A DNA stretch of 64,000 nt from Candidatus Brocadia pituitae (GTDB lineage: Bacteria > Planctomycetota > Brocadiia > Brocadiales > Brocadiaceae): assembly GCA_017347445.1 (NCBI GenBank), contig AP021856.1:938613-1002612 (forward strand), read 5' to 3'. A program made the translations under genes and the position numbers. Positions 5,500-14,182 of this stretch are shown here, piece by piece; positions within the stretch are counted from its first letter, which is position 1, and every line of letters starts with the position of its first letter. The notes under the pieces were generated by a model, which saw only the letters and a program-made list of their open reading frames with translations, was not told the origin of the DNA and did no database searches.

Positions 5500-7728
5500 T
5501 CATTTCGCTTCAAATTGTACCTTCTCGATTCCAATATTTCCCTCGCTATCAAACGCATTGGCGATCAGCGTATAATCGCCAGGCATCAGGGGTCTGGTGG
5601 TAATTTGAAAGGATTCCTCGAGGCTATCGAAGACTCCGTCCACAGGATAAGCCGAGACCCAATCCTGCCCATCAATGGTGTATTGAACTCTTACAATGTT
5701 GCTGTGCCTGTCCTTCGCTGTGCCTGAAACAACATATCTTCCCCCCGTTCCGGCCACAGCGTTTACCAGCCTGACGTCTGGCCTGGTGTTGTCGATCACT
5801 ACAGGTTCTATCGTTTTCTCTGCACTGGCGGCAGTCTCGGGTGGATTATCGGGATCATCGCTTGCAATGAGTCTTACCTGGTATTTACCGTCAGGCAGGC
5901 GCAAGGTATCCCATGTATACGAGCCCTTTTTTTGTGTGTTCTTATCGATCACCTTCCACATCTTTTCTTCAACGCCACGGTAATATAAGGTCAATTGCAG
6001 CGTGTCGTTATTTATGTCTTCCACCTCCCATTGGATGTTTTTCTGAGCAATCTGGTGATGTGGTTTTTGGCCTGCAGTCCCCTGATGTCTCGATTCTGTC
6101 TTGCTGTCGGTTTTTGACTCCGGCGGCTTTTGTGACGCGGGCGAAGATTCCTTTTCTACCATAAAACTGATTATTCTGGGAGGCTCGTTTTTCGGGAGAT
6201 ATGAGAGTGATACTGCGCTTAACACAGGGGTTACATCACTGTTCCCTGTCTGTAAAATGGCTTTGTATTGTATAAACCGCGCGGGGGGGCTGGTGATTCT
6301 CTCTCCATGTATTGCATAAGGTGCAGACCAGCCACTCCATGTGGCATCAGGTTTTTCACCGTTTCCGGTACGGGTGGACAAGGCGAGTTTTGTGCCTACC
6401 GGCTCTATGCCTGTCCAATAGATACATCCCCAACCCGATGGCGCAGCGGTATCGAGCACGTTCGACAGGAAACTTCCCTCTTGCATGAACGACGGTGAAA
6501 TCTTATAAACTCTTCCGACATTGCCCGTGCCAAAATAGAGTTCATTATTGGCGGTATTGAGACAGCATAACGCCTGCACTTCCTCTATACGCGCCAGACT
6601 GCTTGTGTCTTCATCGTTGGAAATTTTATACACCCCGGCGGTGTTTCCCGTAACTATGTATAGATTATCGTGCGCATCGCTGGACATACCAAGGACAAAA
6701 GACTGACTGGTTTCCAGTATTTTTTGTGCGAGTCCTTCCCGGCTGATTTTATAAACGTAGTTCGGTACCATGGGAAGGCCTGTGGTCTTGGGCGGCATAT
6801 CTATCCCCTTTGCTGTCGCTTTTGGTTGTTGCAGGGATGCCGTTTGTGCCATGGGGAGATCTTCCGGGAGATTCCAATCCCATGACTTTCCTTCCTTAAA
6901 AAGGGTGGTAATAGCCCCCGCCTGCACGGGTGGCGGGGAAACCGGAGCCGCAGGCACTTGTGCCTGGGTGCCCGATGCCGTTCCGGCGTATATAGTACCC
7001 GTGGAATCCGTTGCAAGGCAATGGATCTCACTTTCGTTTGCATCATAGAGCACCTGTGCCTGCCCTGACGGCGTTACTTTATATACCAGGCCGTTCGGTT
7101 CTGTGCCAAGATAGATATTATCATACCCGTCATGCAGTACGTCCAGGAGGTTGGTCTCCGGTGAATCGAAAAAAACGGACGGTGTACCATCCGGAGATAT
7201 TTTGAACAGAATGCCGTCATTTCCTGTGGCGGCAAAGAGATTGGAGTTATTGTCAAAGGACATGTCCCATATATAGGGAACCGGCAAGCTGCAAAATACG
7301 GAAGCCTCTCCATGATTGTTTATTTTATAGATGATGCCTCTGGGTGCAGTTCCTGCATAGAGATTGCCGGCGGTATCCGTTGCAAGGCTCTGGATATATA
7401 ATTCCGGAGATTTGAAGAGTTCCACAGCCTCTGAGCCGTCCTTTATCAGGTAGACCACTCCCGGGTCACCCGTGCCAACAAATACCCGGTTTTGGAGATC
7501 CGTGGCGATGGACCAGACAAAAGCGCTTTTGAGTCCCGCGACAGCCTCTATTTTTTGAGCAAGCCGTATTTCTCCTTTGTTATTGACAGAGACATCCTGG
7601 GTACTGCCTTTACTGAAATCAGATTCAGTCGATTGTGTCCATGTGTTTGTTGTTACGCCAAAGGCATAAGAATTCAGGAACATAAGGGAAAATACCGTAC
7701 AGATTGTTATTACCTCAAGACCTTTCAT
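5500..7728 (-). CDS. Secreted beta-propeller protein with C-terminal Ig-like region
   Basis: The 742-residue protein begins with a signal peptide (hydrophobic residues 4-22). Residues about 60-420 hold a series of 40-50-residue repeats with the pattern G..YKI...G.A.V......I..L..D..GN.Y.GT, as in NHL/YncE-like beta-propellers. The remainder contains a Pro/Ser/Lys-rich linker (about 545-570) and two beta-sandwich-like stretches ending in a Gly/Asp-rich Ig-like fold. No catalytic motif is visible; a binding or scaffold role outside the cytoplasm is likely. It lies 11 bases downstream of the S55 peptidase gene and is probably co-transcribed, so the pair may act together at the envelope. Confidence 0.75.
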   Translation of the reverse strand: MKGLEVITICTVFSLMFLNSYAFGVTTNTWTQSTESDFSKGSTQDVSVNNKGEIRLAQKIEAVAGLKSAFVWSIATDLQNRVFVGTGDPGVVYLIKDGSEAVELFKSPELYIQSLATDTAGNLYAGTAPRGIIYKINNHGEASVFCSLPVPYIWDMSFDNNSNLFAATGNDGILFKISPDGTPSVFFDSPETNLLDVLHDGYDNIYLGTEPNGLVYKVTPSGQAQVLYDANESEIHCLATDSTGTIYAGTASGTQAQVPAAPVSPPPVQAGAITTLFKEGKSWDWNLPEDLPMAQTASLQQPKATAKGIDMPPKTTGLPMVPNYVYKISREGLAQKILETSQSFVLGMSSDAHDNLYIVTGNTAGVYKISNDEDTSSLARIEEVQALCCLNTANNELYFGTGNVGRVYKISPSFMQEGSFLSNVLDTAAPSGWGCIYWTGIEPVGTKLALSTRTGNGEKPDATWSGWSAPYAIHGERITSPPARFIQYKAILQTGNSDVTPVLSAVSLSYLPKNEPPRIISFMVEKESSPASQKPPESKTDSKTESRHQGTAGQKPHHQIAQKNIQWEVEDINNDTLQLTLYYRGVEEKMWKVIDKNTQKKGSYTWDTLRLPDGKYQVRLIASDDPDNPPETAASAEKTIEPVVIDNTRPDVRLVNAVAGTGGRYVVSGTAKDRHSNIVRVQYTIDGQDWVSAYPVDGVFDSLEESFQITTRPLMPGDYTLIANAFDSEGNIGIEKVQFEAK

Positions 7729-10745: not shown

Positions 10746-11198
10746 ATGAAGATTGCATTAGCGTCAGACCACAGAGGTTTTGATTTTAAAAAACGTGTCG
10801 CAACCATGCTTACCCAGGCGGGTCACACGGTGAAGGATTTTGGTACGGATAAAAATAACGAATCGGTAGACTACCCTGATTACGGTTTACTAGCAGCCCG
10901 TGCCGTTGGATCGGGAGAATGCGAACGGGGAATCCTGATCTGTGGTACGGGAATTGGGATGTCTCTCATAGCGAATAAAGTAAGAGGCGTACGGGCTGCA
11001 TGCTGTCATAATCTTTACACCGTAGAGATGAGCCGGCGGCACAATGATTCGAATGTGCTGTGCATCGGCGCTGATGTTATCGATGAAGAGCTTCTGGAAC
11101 AGAAGGTCAAGCTGTGGATGGAAACTCCCTTTGAGGGCGGAAGACATGCCCGCCGCGTGGAAAAGATCATGGAAGTAGAAAATGGCGAAGGGATTTAG
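10746..11198 (+). CDS. rpiB: Ribose-5-phosphate isomerase B
   Basis: This enzyme interconverts ribulose-5-phosphate and ribose-5-phosphate in the pentose phosphate pathway. The 150-residue protein has SDHRGFDFK at residues 7-15, the catalytic cysteine block ILICGTGIGMS (about 63-73), RHNDSNVLCIG and the C-terminal phosphate-binding EGGRHARRVEKI. All expected RpiB motifs are present and the length is usual. Confidence 0.95.
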   Translation: MKIALASDHRGFDFKKRVATMLTQAGHTVKDFGTDKNNESVDYPDYGLLAARAVGSGECERGILICGTGIGMSLIANKVRGVRAACCHNLYTVEMSRRHNDSNVLCIGADVIDEELLEQKVKLWMETPFEGGRHARRVEKIMEVENGEGI

Positions 11199-11308
11199 CG
11201 TTTATTTGTTAAGCGAACTACCGTTCGAAATAACGAGTCGCATTTTCATGGAAATCCGGGTATGTTGAAAAATAAAAATTTCAAAAAGACAAAGCATCAA
11301 ATGATTCA

Positions 11309-11330
11309 AATCATCAAATAATCGATGATT
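11309..11330. repeat. Hairpin just past the DUF1566 gene
   Basis: AATCATC (11309-11315) and GATGATT (11324-11330) pair perfectly around an 8-base loop. It begins only a few bases after the stop codon of the DUF1566 gene. In diversity-generating retroelements a hairpin or cruciform shortly after the variable region helps retrohoming. Here that role is only suggested by position. Confidence 0.45.
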
Positions 11331-11334
11331 GTCC

Positions 11335-12540
11335 TCAACGAACTGCACGTACATAGGAGTCGAGGCCGAAGACGCCGTAGCCGCAATAACCGGTGCCGAA
11401 ACCGACAACCCAGGCGCTCGAGGCACTAGAAAGATCAGATGTCCAAACCCACTTTTGTTCATCATTAAATAAAGAGTCAACATACAAACCTTTATCCGTT
11501 TTCCCAGGCTTTAATAAAGTTATGGCTTCCTTTAATGTAGGTAGACGCCAATCGCTGTAGCTAGCAAAACCTTTTTGATTAAGTTGCCTTATATAATTAT
11601 GTGCTTTATTATATGTCATGTTCTTCTCTGAGCCAGACTGCTGCCACATGAGGCCAGTGGCTTTGTCGTAAATCACTTTGCCGTCTTTTTGTACTTCAAA
11701 TTCATTCTTCGTGTAATTCTTTGGTTTTAGGTTTTCATCTAACAGAAAACTTTGAGTCTTTTCGTAAGTAAGATATGCGCCCGATTTTTCTGGTAAGGGA
11801 GATAACTGGGCTTGTAGTCGAACAACCTCGGCTTCGAGTTTTCTTACTTCATCTTCATCTTTTCCGCCTTCTTTTTGTGCTTCAGCTAACTCGCCCTTTG
11901 TCTTCTCAAGTTCTTTTATTGTGTCAATTATTCCGCATCGATAGGTCTCCCATCTTTTCTGCAAATCTGCAGAAATTGTGAGTTTTGCAAAATAATCTGC
12001 AAAACGGAGACGCTTTTCATGGTCGTCTGCCAAAGCATACGTAATAAAATCGCCCAAATATTTCATTTCAGCCTGACGACGCTCAGCCTCTGCCTTTGCA
12101 TTTTGTAAGTTAAGTTCTGCTTTTTCTTTGTTTTCCTGTAATTTTAATTCAGCATTACGAAGTACTTCTTGCTGTTTAAGCTGCCTATTTTGGAACTTAT
12201 TATTAATTAATACTCCAAGAGCGGTTCCAAACACAACCGTAATGGCAACCGTAATAATTTCCTTCCATACCTTAAACCGTTCAAGCCTCAGCTTCTCAAA
12301 TTCAAGAGAAGCCGTTGCAGTTGCTATGTTTTTATTTACTTCGATTTGGCTCTGGTCTGCCTCGGCTTTGGCATCCTGTAATGTGAGTGAAAAATGAAGA
12401 CATGCAATAAGAATGCTTGCAGACAAGACTGTACGTGTGCTTGTAACAATTTTGCTTAACAGGTTAAGTCGTTTAATTCTAAGCTGTACAGTTTCAAGGA
12501 AAACAGGTTCATTTACCATGGTGTTATTCCTTTTCTTCAC
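11335..12540 (-). CDS. DUF1566 (Lcl C-terminal) domain membrane protein
   Basis: The 401-residue protein has two hydrophobic segments (about residues 32-50 and 92-112), a long Glu/Lys/Ala-rich coiled coil (about 115-165 and 205-250), and a C-terminal DUF1566 domain starting near VIYDKATGLMWQQ with YSDWRLPTLKEA and ending YVRAVR. DUF1566 has a C-type-lectin-like use as a ligand-binding scaffold in Legionella Lcl and in several retroelement targets. The C-terminus carries the variable-region codon pattern described separately. A RelE-type toxin-antitoxin pair lies directly upstream on the same strand. Function probably surface or envelope binding; domain call sure, role inferred. Confidence 0.8.
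   Translation of the reverse strand: MKKRNNTMVNEPVFLETVQLRIKRLNLLSKIVTSTRTVLSASILIACLHFSLTLQDAKAEADQSQIEVNKNIATATASLEFEKLRLERFKVWKEIITVAITVVFGTALGVLINNKFQNRQLKQQEVLRNAELKLQENKEKAELNLQNAKAEAERRQAEMKYLGDFITYALADDHEKRLRFADYFAKLTISADLQKRWETYRCGIIDTIKELEKTKGELAEAQKEGGKDEDEVRKLEAEVVRLQAQLSPLPEKSGAYLTYEKTQSFLLDENLKPKNYTKNEFEVQKDGKVIYDKATGLMWQQSGSEKNMTYNKAHNYIRQLNQKGFASYSDWRLPTLKEAITLLKPGKTDKGLYVDSLFNDEQKWVWTSDLSSASSAWVVGFGTGYCGYGVFGLDSYVRAVR
11338..11430 (-). other. Putative DGR-type variable region (C-terminal codons of DUF1566 gene)
   Basis: Read on the minus strand, about 25 consecutive codons almost all end in C or T (23 of 25): GCC, AGC, GTC, GGT, TTC, GGC, TAT, TGC, TAC, CTC, GAC, TCC. This is the product expected when AAC/AAT codons are mutagenised at their adenines by a retroelement reverse transcriptase. 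The stretch is much richer in G+C than the rest of the gene. The peptide keeps the fixed positions usual for this domain (AW near the start, YVR.VR at the end). I saw neither a template repeat nor a reverse transcriptase in the window. Confidence 0.6.
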
Positions 12541-12555
12541 GTAAAAATTACTTGC

Positions 12556-12819
12556 TTACTTGTAAATATCCCGCCTGTGTCCTATCTTATGGACGGTAAT
12601 AACTCTGCTGTTATGGTCTATTCCGTAAACAATCCGATAGTCACCAACCTTCAATTTACAAAGTCCGGAAAAACTGCCAGTAAGTGGTAAAATATTTACT
12701 ATTTCAATATTTTCTGAAAACCACGCTAGTTTATCGGTAATTCTCTTTGCTATAGGCTTATCAAGTTTTGATAGCGTATCAAATGCTTTAAGCAGAATGA
12801 TTACGCTGTATTCATTCAA
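12556..12819 (-). CDS. RelE/ParE-family toxin
   Basis: The 87-residue protein has the compact RelE/ParE fold signature: an N-terminal strand, helices with LDKPIAKRITDKL, then LTGSFSGLCKLKVGDYRIVY and the C-terminal VHKIGHRRDIYK. The conserved Arg and His residues near the end match ribosome-dependent mRNA interferases. It overlaps the antitoxin gene by eight bases, as usual for translationally coupled pairs. Confidence 0.85.
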   Translation of the reverse strand: MNEYSVIILLKAFDTLSKLDKPIAKRITDKLAWFSENIEIVNILPLTGSFSGLCKLKVGDYRIVYGIDHNSRVITVHKIGHRRDIYK

Positions 12820-13036
12820 GACCCAGTTCCTTTATAACAGTTTCAAGCGGTAGCCCTTTTTCCTTAGCCTTTATAGATCCTCTTAATTCTTCTTCAACCC
12901 CCGGTCTCAATTCAAGTCCATAGTCTGGGTCTATAACCTCTAATACCGTGTCCTTAATAAGTTTCTTAAGCTCTCTAACGGTCATATCGCCTACCTTTTT
13001 GTCTATTGTTTTTTTGTTTAATGCTTTTGTAGCCAT
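12812..13036 (-). CDS. Antitoxin partner of RelE-type toxin
   Basis: A 74-residue, mostly charged protein with an N-terminal VRELKKLI helix and a Glu/Lys-rich middle, in the position of an antitoxin. It precedes and overlaps the toxin gene. AAGAAGGTGAG upstream of the ATG is a good ribosome binding site. I do not recognise a named DNA-binding fold with certainty. Confidence 0.75.
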   Translation of the reverse strand: MATKALNKKTIDKKVGDMTVRELKKLIKDTVLEVIDPDYGLELRPGVEEELRGSIKAKEKGLPLETVIKELGLE

Positions 13037-13050
13037 AAACTCACCTTCTT

Positions 13051-13150
13051 AATAAAATAAAAAGGCTAACGGCAGAATGTCACGGCTCGCACAGTTAGCC
13101 TTTATACTCGAAGATCGCTATCCGATTATTATTCTGCAACTTCCGTGACC
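13051..13150 (-). promoter_or_regulatory. Structured leader with terminator-like hairpin before the toxin-antitoxin genes
   Basis: On the minus strand a perfect 10-bp stem (AAAGGCTAAC/GTTAGCCTTT, 13103-13094 with 13070-13061) is followed by TTTTATTTTATT and, within 25 bases, by the antitoxin start. The hairpin loop can instead pair upstream through GTCACGG/CCGTGAC (13149-13143 with 13085-13079) or GCAGAAT/ATTCTGC, so alternative folds exist. This looks like an attenuator or a small RNA end. I do not match it to a known riboswitch class. Confidence 0.45.
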
Positions 13151-13342
13151 CAATTACAGCTTATTTCAGATTATACTACCATTTAGACTCTTGTTGTCAA
13201 GCGAATCTATTGGTAAGGACTCCCCTATCCCCTGGAATCTAAAGGAATGCCAAAACCTCTCGCAGGGGGGGGATTGTTACAAACTTGCAAAAACGGGGAA
13301 TGGGGAAAGAAAGATTTTATACGGTAATACCAGAACCCCTTT

Positions 13343-14182
13343 TTAGTTCAGGGTAATTATGTGTGCTCCTTCTGGAATGGTGAGGGTGAAGAGCTTTGGG
13401 TCGATCACGCAGTTTACGGCAATATCAGAAAACGTTATGCTCAGGGTGGTGTCATATGCCGGCCAGCGAACGTCAATCTTTTGTGGTATCCGGCATTCAT
13501 TTTGTGTTGTGTAATTGGTAAATACCGCCTGTAGCCGGACCGAACCGTCCGGATTAAACAGTTCACAGCGAACAACCTCTGCATTAACCCTGTCAATCAA
13601 AAGATTTCCTTTCAGATTCACATCCTCCTTATCCACTTCAAGCATATGGATCAGCCAATAGGCAGGCCAGGTCTCCAGGGTAGGGCTTTTTCCCTGCAAA
13701 ATTTCCCGGTAATTAAATAAGCTGGCCATATCACCAGGAAAGATGCTGATGCCAAACGCATCAATCCTGTGAAAGGTATTGGATGCACCGGTGTATGCGA
13801 GGTTTTCCGGAGGGATGTATAACCAGAACCGGTTACCATCGGAAGACATATCAAACAGCGTTGTGGCAAACTTAGCGCCTATCGCCCGCAAGCTCCCGGG
13901 GCTTTGATATAATATCAACCCCGTACAGCGGACAGGACCCTTGGCGTCCGGTGTTGTAAGAGCCAAGTCTGCCTTCGCACGAAACCCGGTAAGCTTGGAA
14001 CTGTTAGTAATCAGGGTGTCTCTGATCTGTTGCAACGAGAGATTCTGTTTTTCCCCCTGGATATTTGCCAGGATGGCTGAAGTATCCTCCCAAACCGGTT
14101 TGTGCAAAACTGGAGTTTTAAAGGTTGCACAACCGGACACGAGCGTGAGGAACACGGAGAAAATGCGTACAGACGATTTCAT
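13343..14182 (-). CDS. LolA-like outer-membrane lipoprotein (DUF4292-type)
   Basis: The 279-residue protein begins with a lipoprotein signal peptide ending in the lipobox LVSGC (Cys near residue 18). The rest alternates strands as in LolA/LolB/DUF4292 folds: FRAKADLALTTPDAKG, LILYQSPGSLRAIG, DMSSDGNRFWLYIPPEN, and a C-terminal half with IDVRWPAY and FTLTIPEGA. Such proteins bind lipids or lipoproteins at the outer membrane. It precedes the polyferredoxin gene region in reverse order, separated by a 187-base gap with a repeat. The fold assignment is probable, the exact substrate unknown. Confidence 0.65.
   Translation of the reverse strand: MKSSVRIFSVFLTLVSGCATFKTPVLHKPVWEDTSAILANIQGEKQNLSLQQIRDTLITNSSKLTGFRAKADLALTTPDAKGPVRCTGLILYQSPGSLRAIGAKFATTLFDMSSDGNRFWLYIPPENLAYTGASNTFHRIDAFGISIFPGDMASLFNYREILQGKSPTLETWPAYWLIHMLEVDKEDVNLKGNLLIDRVNAEVVRCELFNPDGSVRLQAVFTNYTTQNECRIPQKIDVRWPAYDTTLSITFSDIAVNCVIDPKLFTLTIPEGAHIITLN

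Follow-up and report, generated by a model that had tools for sequence, protein, structure and literature searches.

An orphan target of a diversity-generating retroelement, most likely diversified in trans, in Candidatus Brocadia pituitae

A 64,000-nucleotide stretch of the Candidatus Brocadia pituitae genome (contig AP021856.1, positions 938,613 to 1,002,612; hereafter, the window) contains an Lcl_C (DUF1566) gene, whose end is the variable region of a diversity-generating retroelement (DGR). We consider it very likely that this gene is an orphan target, which was written by a DGR, inserted without the DGR machinery, and then most probably diversified in trans. The features on which this conclusion is based are collected in Table 1.

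Table 1. Features of the target locus and the template repeat used as reference (window positions, unless a contig is given).
Feature	Position	Strand	Remarks
Variable region, 19 codons	11356-11412	-	adenine-restricted changes, C/T codon ends
Variable protein gene	11335-12540	-	N-terminal membrane/coiled-coil part, C-terminal Lcl_C (DUF1566) domain
Invariant 3' end of variable region	11325-11355	-	IMH-like homing sequence TATGTACGTGCAGTTCGTTGAGGACAATCAT; target form GAGGACAATCAT, template form GAGGAAAATCAT
AT-rich inverted repeat	11309-11330	-	7-bp stem, 8-nt loop; from sequence, role doubtful
Insert, ~2.1 kb	11199-13342	.	variable protein and toxin-antitoxin pair; TTTAG at both junctions
rpiB	10746-11198	+	flanks insert
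lolB-like gene	13343-14182	-	flanks insert
RelE-like toxin gene (putative)	12556-12819	-	ORF, by eye; absent from G008 copy (blastn of insert)
Antitoxin-like gene (putative)	12812-13036	-	by eye; 90% identical in G008
Template repeat	G011:C224:3599-3695		beside accessory gene avd

Variable region, its product and its homing sequence

The variable region reads TGG GTT GTC GGT TTC GGC ACC GGT TAT TGC GGC TAC GGC GTC TTC GGC CTC GAC TCC and is followed by codons for YVRAVR. A sequence-only reading of the window had described the codons before YVRAVR as mostly C/T-ending and the stretch as G+C-rich inside an AT-rich gene, and both descriptions were borne out by counting. C or T occupies the third position in 18 of these 19 codons versus 174 of 376 in the remainder of the gene, where the highest count in any other run of 19 codons is 13; the G+C content is 0.63 versus 0.39 upstream.

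A cognate template was available from G011, a genome of the same family as the window's host, where avd is followed by the template repeat TGGGTTGTCAATTTCAACAACGGTAATTGCAACAACAACGACATCAGCAACAACAATAACTATGTACGTGCCGTTCGCTGAGGAAAATCATC. When the variable region was compared with this template, which comes from another genus and is not the window's own, and with one codon gap placed, 19 of 24 adenines were changed and none of the 36 other bases (Fisher p = 2.1e-11). Alternative placements of the single gap gave p = 4e-10 and 2e-9, and in an automatic alignment of a longer stretch 20 of 23 mismatches fell at adenines (p = 6e-10). The same pattern was seen in targets of G008, G054, G046 (G046a), G011 itself and a Calditrichaceae genome. 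As judged from nucleotide comparison, this adenine restriction shows that the window carries DGR-written sequence, and the proposal that the gene ends in a DGR-like variable region is upheld.

The variation among relatives that was expected at these codons was also found: when set against the gene at the corresponding locus of Ca. Brocadia sp. WS118 (G008), its syntenic orthologue, the variable region differs at 14 of 25 adenine sites and at 1 of 35 others, in a comparison of two orthologues, with one genome per species, that cannot date the end of diversification. Differences among seven targets were distributed over first, second and third codon positions as 0.415/0.381/0.092, while in a set of fixed Lcl_C paralogues the distribution was 0.128/0.112/0.371. 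In the 25 codons just upstream of the variable region, the two Brocadia orthologues show 9, 5 and 9 differences at the three positions; since this stretch is strongly diverged, allelic recombination has probably touched the gene as well.

The variable protein gene probably starts at an internal ATG near 12519, matching G008. Residues 289-401 of the product correspond to Pfam Lcl_C (PF07603, formerly DUF1566; E = 5.5e-23), and the N-terminal membrane and coiled-coil part was read from the sequence. The solved fold nearest to an AlphaFold2 model of the Lcl_C domain (mean pLDDT 89.8) was the C-terminal domain of Legionella Lcl (8q4e), with C-type lectins next, and the variable codons map to the last strands and loops of the model. 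By model and fold match, the target codons are thus part of a C-terminal domain with the C-type lectin fold. The gene probably encodes a receptor of this fold, anchored in the membrane, in which the face that would bind a putative ligand was diversified.

Targets, the window's included, terminate in GAGGACAATCAT, and the templates of G011:C224 and of L138, a locus in a deltaproteobacterial MAG, terminate in GAGGAAAATCAT; this pair stands in the usual relation of IMH in the target to IMH* in the template. The window's gene shares its 3' homing sequence with targets in G008, G003, G011, G012, G046, G054, G417 and Calditrichaceae locus L135. In a pattern scan the sequence was present in 10 of 62 genomes of the order, while a reversed control pattern gave 0 matches. 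The L135 target (7200-7570) departs from the L138 template at 16 positions, all of them adenines, despite the different phylum, and its gene has an in-frame stop upstream. The Scalindua targets in G046 and G417 have a TIR domain joined to Lcl_C, in place of the membrane/coiled-coil N terminus of the window's protein. G046:C20 (L077) carries two such copies ~5 kb apart (5911-6963 and 10752-11594), the second interrupted, and G417:C66 (L183) another, with the same homing sequence in each case.

The hairpin that follows the gene had been read as a homing structure. The 7-bp stem (AATCATC/GATGATT) is indeed perfect, but it folds with no more than ordinary energy (z = -0.98), and only G008 and one Scalindua copy retain the hairpin; its role is doubtful, because it is not conserved among the other homologous targets, and a homing function of this weak, AT-rich element found no support, so that it adds little to the case for a DGR. 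Phage DGRs have a hairpin with a GC-rich stem and a GRNA tetraloop (PMC3240598), both of which the window's hairpin lacks.

Search for the cognate machinery

Neither a reverse transcriptase (RT) nor a template had been visible in the window, and this holds genome-wide: a complete DGR is absent from the single-contig, 4.08-Mb assembly, which lacks the DGR RT, the template repeat and a cognate Avd. Of its six RVT_1 matches, five carry the group II intron motif GTPQGxxxSPxLAN, and the sixth, a fragment, resembles these group II RTs; none is of the DGR type, which in related genomes has GLPIGNLxSQxFAN and is detected by the same Pfam model. One group II intron RT fragment, with an internal deletion, lies ~22 kb from the target (genome positions 927549-927752, L006). 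Whole-genome template searches combined similarity with an adenine-tolerant pattern. With the variable region as query, similarity searching returned only the gene itself; a 78-base pattern in which any base may be A matched only the same gene, and a true template repeat used as query likewise retrieved this gene alone and no template. There was no match to the cognate type of Avd at 1e-12, and eight S23-family proteins of the genome were rejected as candidates, not being Avd-like. The gene had been called a remote target; machinery is indeed missing nearby, but the rest of the genome has no template or RT for it either, and the target is an orphan rather than merely remote. Collections of viral, plasmid and phage sequences yielded no near relative of the variable region.

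Cassettes with the window's type of homing sequence were found in other genomes. At L138 (contig WYBG01000607), a pattern scan of genome contigs revealed a target end, avd, template and RT in a row, with protein families bAvd (PF22296) and RVT_1 and the same 3' homing sequence as in the window. A partner template for the window's target would be expected to be AAC-rich and to carry GAGGAAAATCATC. In G011:C224 (L075, 3058-3695), avd and the template are not followed by an RT; the next gene, on the opposite strand, starts within 200 bases. In another Brocadia genome (G010:C80; L142, L192), an avd fragment comes after a different Lcl_C gene, and neither a template nor an RT was found, marking a second DGR that has decayed in this genus.

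The DGR RTs of G006, G011:C198, G012:C153 and G028 were rejected as partners of the window's target, as their templates are FGE-like and end in GFR, and that of G012:C193 was rejected for its different IMH. DGRs of this other type, with FGE-like templates ending in GFR, occur in G006:C83 (L116), G011:C198 (L117), G012:C153 (L118), G028:C59 (L120) and G036:C11 (L122), whose hosts are anammox relatives and further members of the order. L122 has two targets, with 17 and 20 mismatches, all at template adenines.

Insertion of the target and alternative explanations

The target lies in an insert whose site is empty in three other Brocadia genomes, G007, G006 and G005, where rpiB directly abuts the lolB-like gene. 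At exactly the same point, G008 has a 1.8-kb insert with the variable protein and the antitoxin-like gene. Neither copy of the insert contains avd, a template or an RT, and no DGR RT was matched in the G008 draft genome. In the flanking rpiB and intergenic DNA, the two genomes share ~95% identity; the high identity of the 3' flank of the target equals this background of neighbouring DNA and was rejected as a sign of functional conservation. Elsewhere in the window, a SAM riboswitch is located at 1993-2116 (Rfam RF00162, 82.7 bits).

The target probably reached Brocadia on its own and owes its diversification to components, since lost or located elsewhere, that acted in trans. In the proposed mechanism, an AAC/AAT-rich template RNA would be reverse-transcribed with random bases placed opposite adenines, and the resulting cDNA would take the place of the gene's 3' end as far as the IMH-like sequence (mutagenic retrohoming). 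The target would have entered the Brocadia lineage in a small insert with a toxin-antitoxin pair and without avd, template or RT, and diversification would have continued after insertion, in trans, by a DGR that has since disappeared or is confined to other strains or replicons. Because the same machinery-free insert is found in G008 and the differences are nearly restricted to adenine sites, the two variable regions most probably diverged after insertion.

An unlikely alternative source of the pattern is a donor's complete DGR, from which the target arrived frozen, to be changed since only by drift or recombination. The lack of machinery in both Brocadia genomes, the many related targets likewise without a nearby RT (for most targets with the homing sequence, none was found within 10-20 kb, or less on short contigs) and the in-frame stop in the Calditrichaceae gene agree with such a fossil. 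Yet the two orthologues share their insertion point and still differ mainly at template-adenine sites, and between flanks this similar, drift would not pick adenines. Post-insertion diversification needs machinery from somewhere, and it is conceivable, if doubtful, that the assembly misses a plasmid, phage or strain-variable element with the DGR components, in which case the target would be an ordinary active remote one. Thiohalocapsa provides documented examples both of DGRs acting in trans and of population variants whose RT is intact (PMC10907252). Against this explanation, the IMH pattern was unmatched in viral contigs and the variable region in plasmid records, and phages yielded no related Avd accompanied by this type of template.

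A purely selective origin, in which the ligand-binding face of a lectin-like domain diversified under ordinary selection and without a retroelement, has next to no probability. In its favour, Lcl_C proteins serve as binding domains, and other parts of the domain also show frequent amino-acid changes, but selection alone fails to generate the observed pattern of adenine sites and codon positions: non-adenine bases are unchanged relative to a template from another genus, third positions are conserved while first and second vary, and the fixed paralogue shows the normal pattern. The shared IMH and the genuine templates with avd and RT elsewhere also speak against it, and in this form the explanation is already refuted by the adenine restriction.

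Significance and comparison with known systems

Anammox bacteria are important in the nitrogen cycle and in wastewater treatment. With this locus they join the organisms that have hypermutated receptor-like proteins, of which the literature searched holds no description in anammox bacteria. What is new is a machinery-free target in a single-contig genome, with its insertion placed by empty sites and a diverged orthologue pair, so that the arrival of a DGR target without machinery is placed on a species tree. The empty sites, the insertion point shared by two species and their differing variable regions make diversification of mobile targets in trans testable. As a tentative and rather speculative generalization, DGR targets might be mobile stand-alone units, in this case accompanied by a toxin-antitoxin pair, crossing species and even phyla with a common homing sequence and diversified by whichever compatible DGR the host population has; if true, target and mutator would be shared resources and not one locus.

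The TIR-Lcl_C targets of Scalindua fit the putative conflict-system sensors described among DGR targets (PMC10907252). The fixed Lcl_C paralogue of Brocadiaceae (genome positions 3327349-3327693, L017) has the same domain as the window's target and a WxVxFDSGFCDYAY...VRAVR end, but is conserved across genera, differs mainly at third positions and has no IMH. Since one relative (G027:C177) still has an IMH-like 3' end, the paralogues may once have been a DGR target that is now frozen.

Among Avd-type DGRs with DUF1566 targets, the BPP-1-like order of target, avd, template repeat and RT is found at L138 together with the window's homing sequence, whereas the window holds the target alone. Remote targets and action in trans are known from cyanobacteria (PMC7517822) and Thiohalocapsa PB-PSB1 (PMC10907252), and contig-based surveys would miss remote targets by design (PMC8144416). 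The window's gene resembles these remote variable proteins in its C-type-lectin-fold product, in the large distance of its 3' variable region from any DGR RT, in adenine-restricted differences and, as we infer, in diversification in trans. It differs in that most remote variable proteins have a matching template and RT in the same genome, while here a single-contig genome has neither; DGR 7 of Thiohalocapsa (PMC10907252) is a partial precedent for a target without same-genome machinery.
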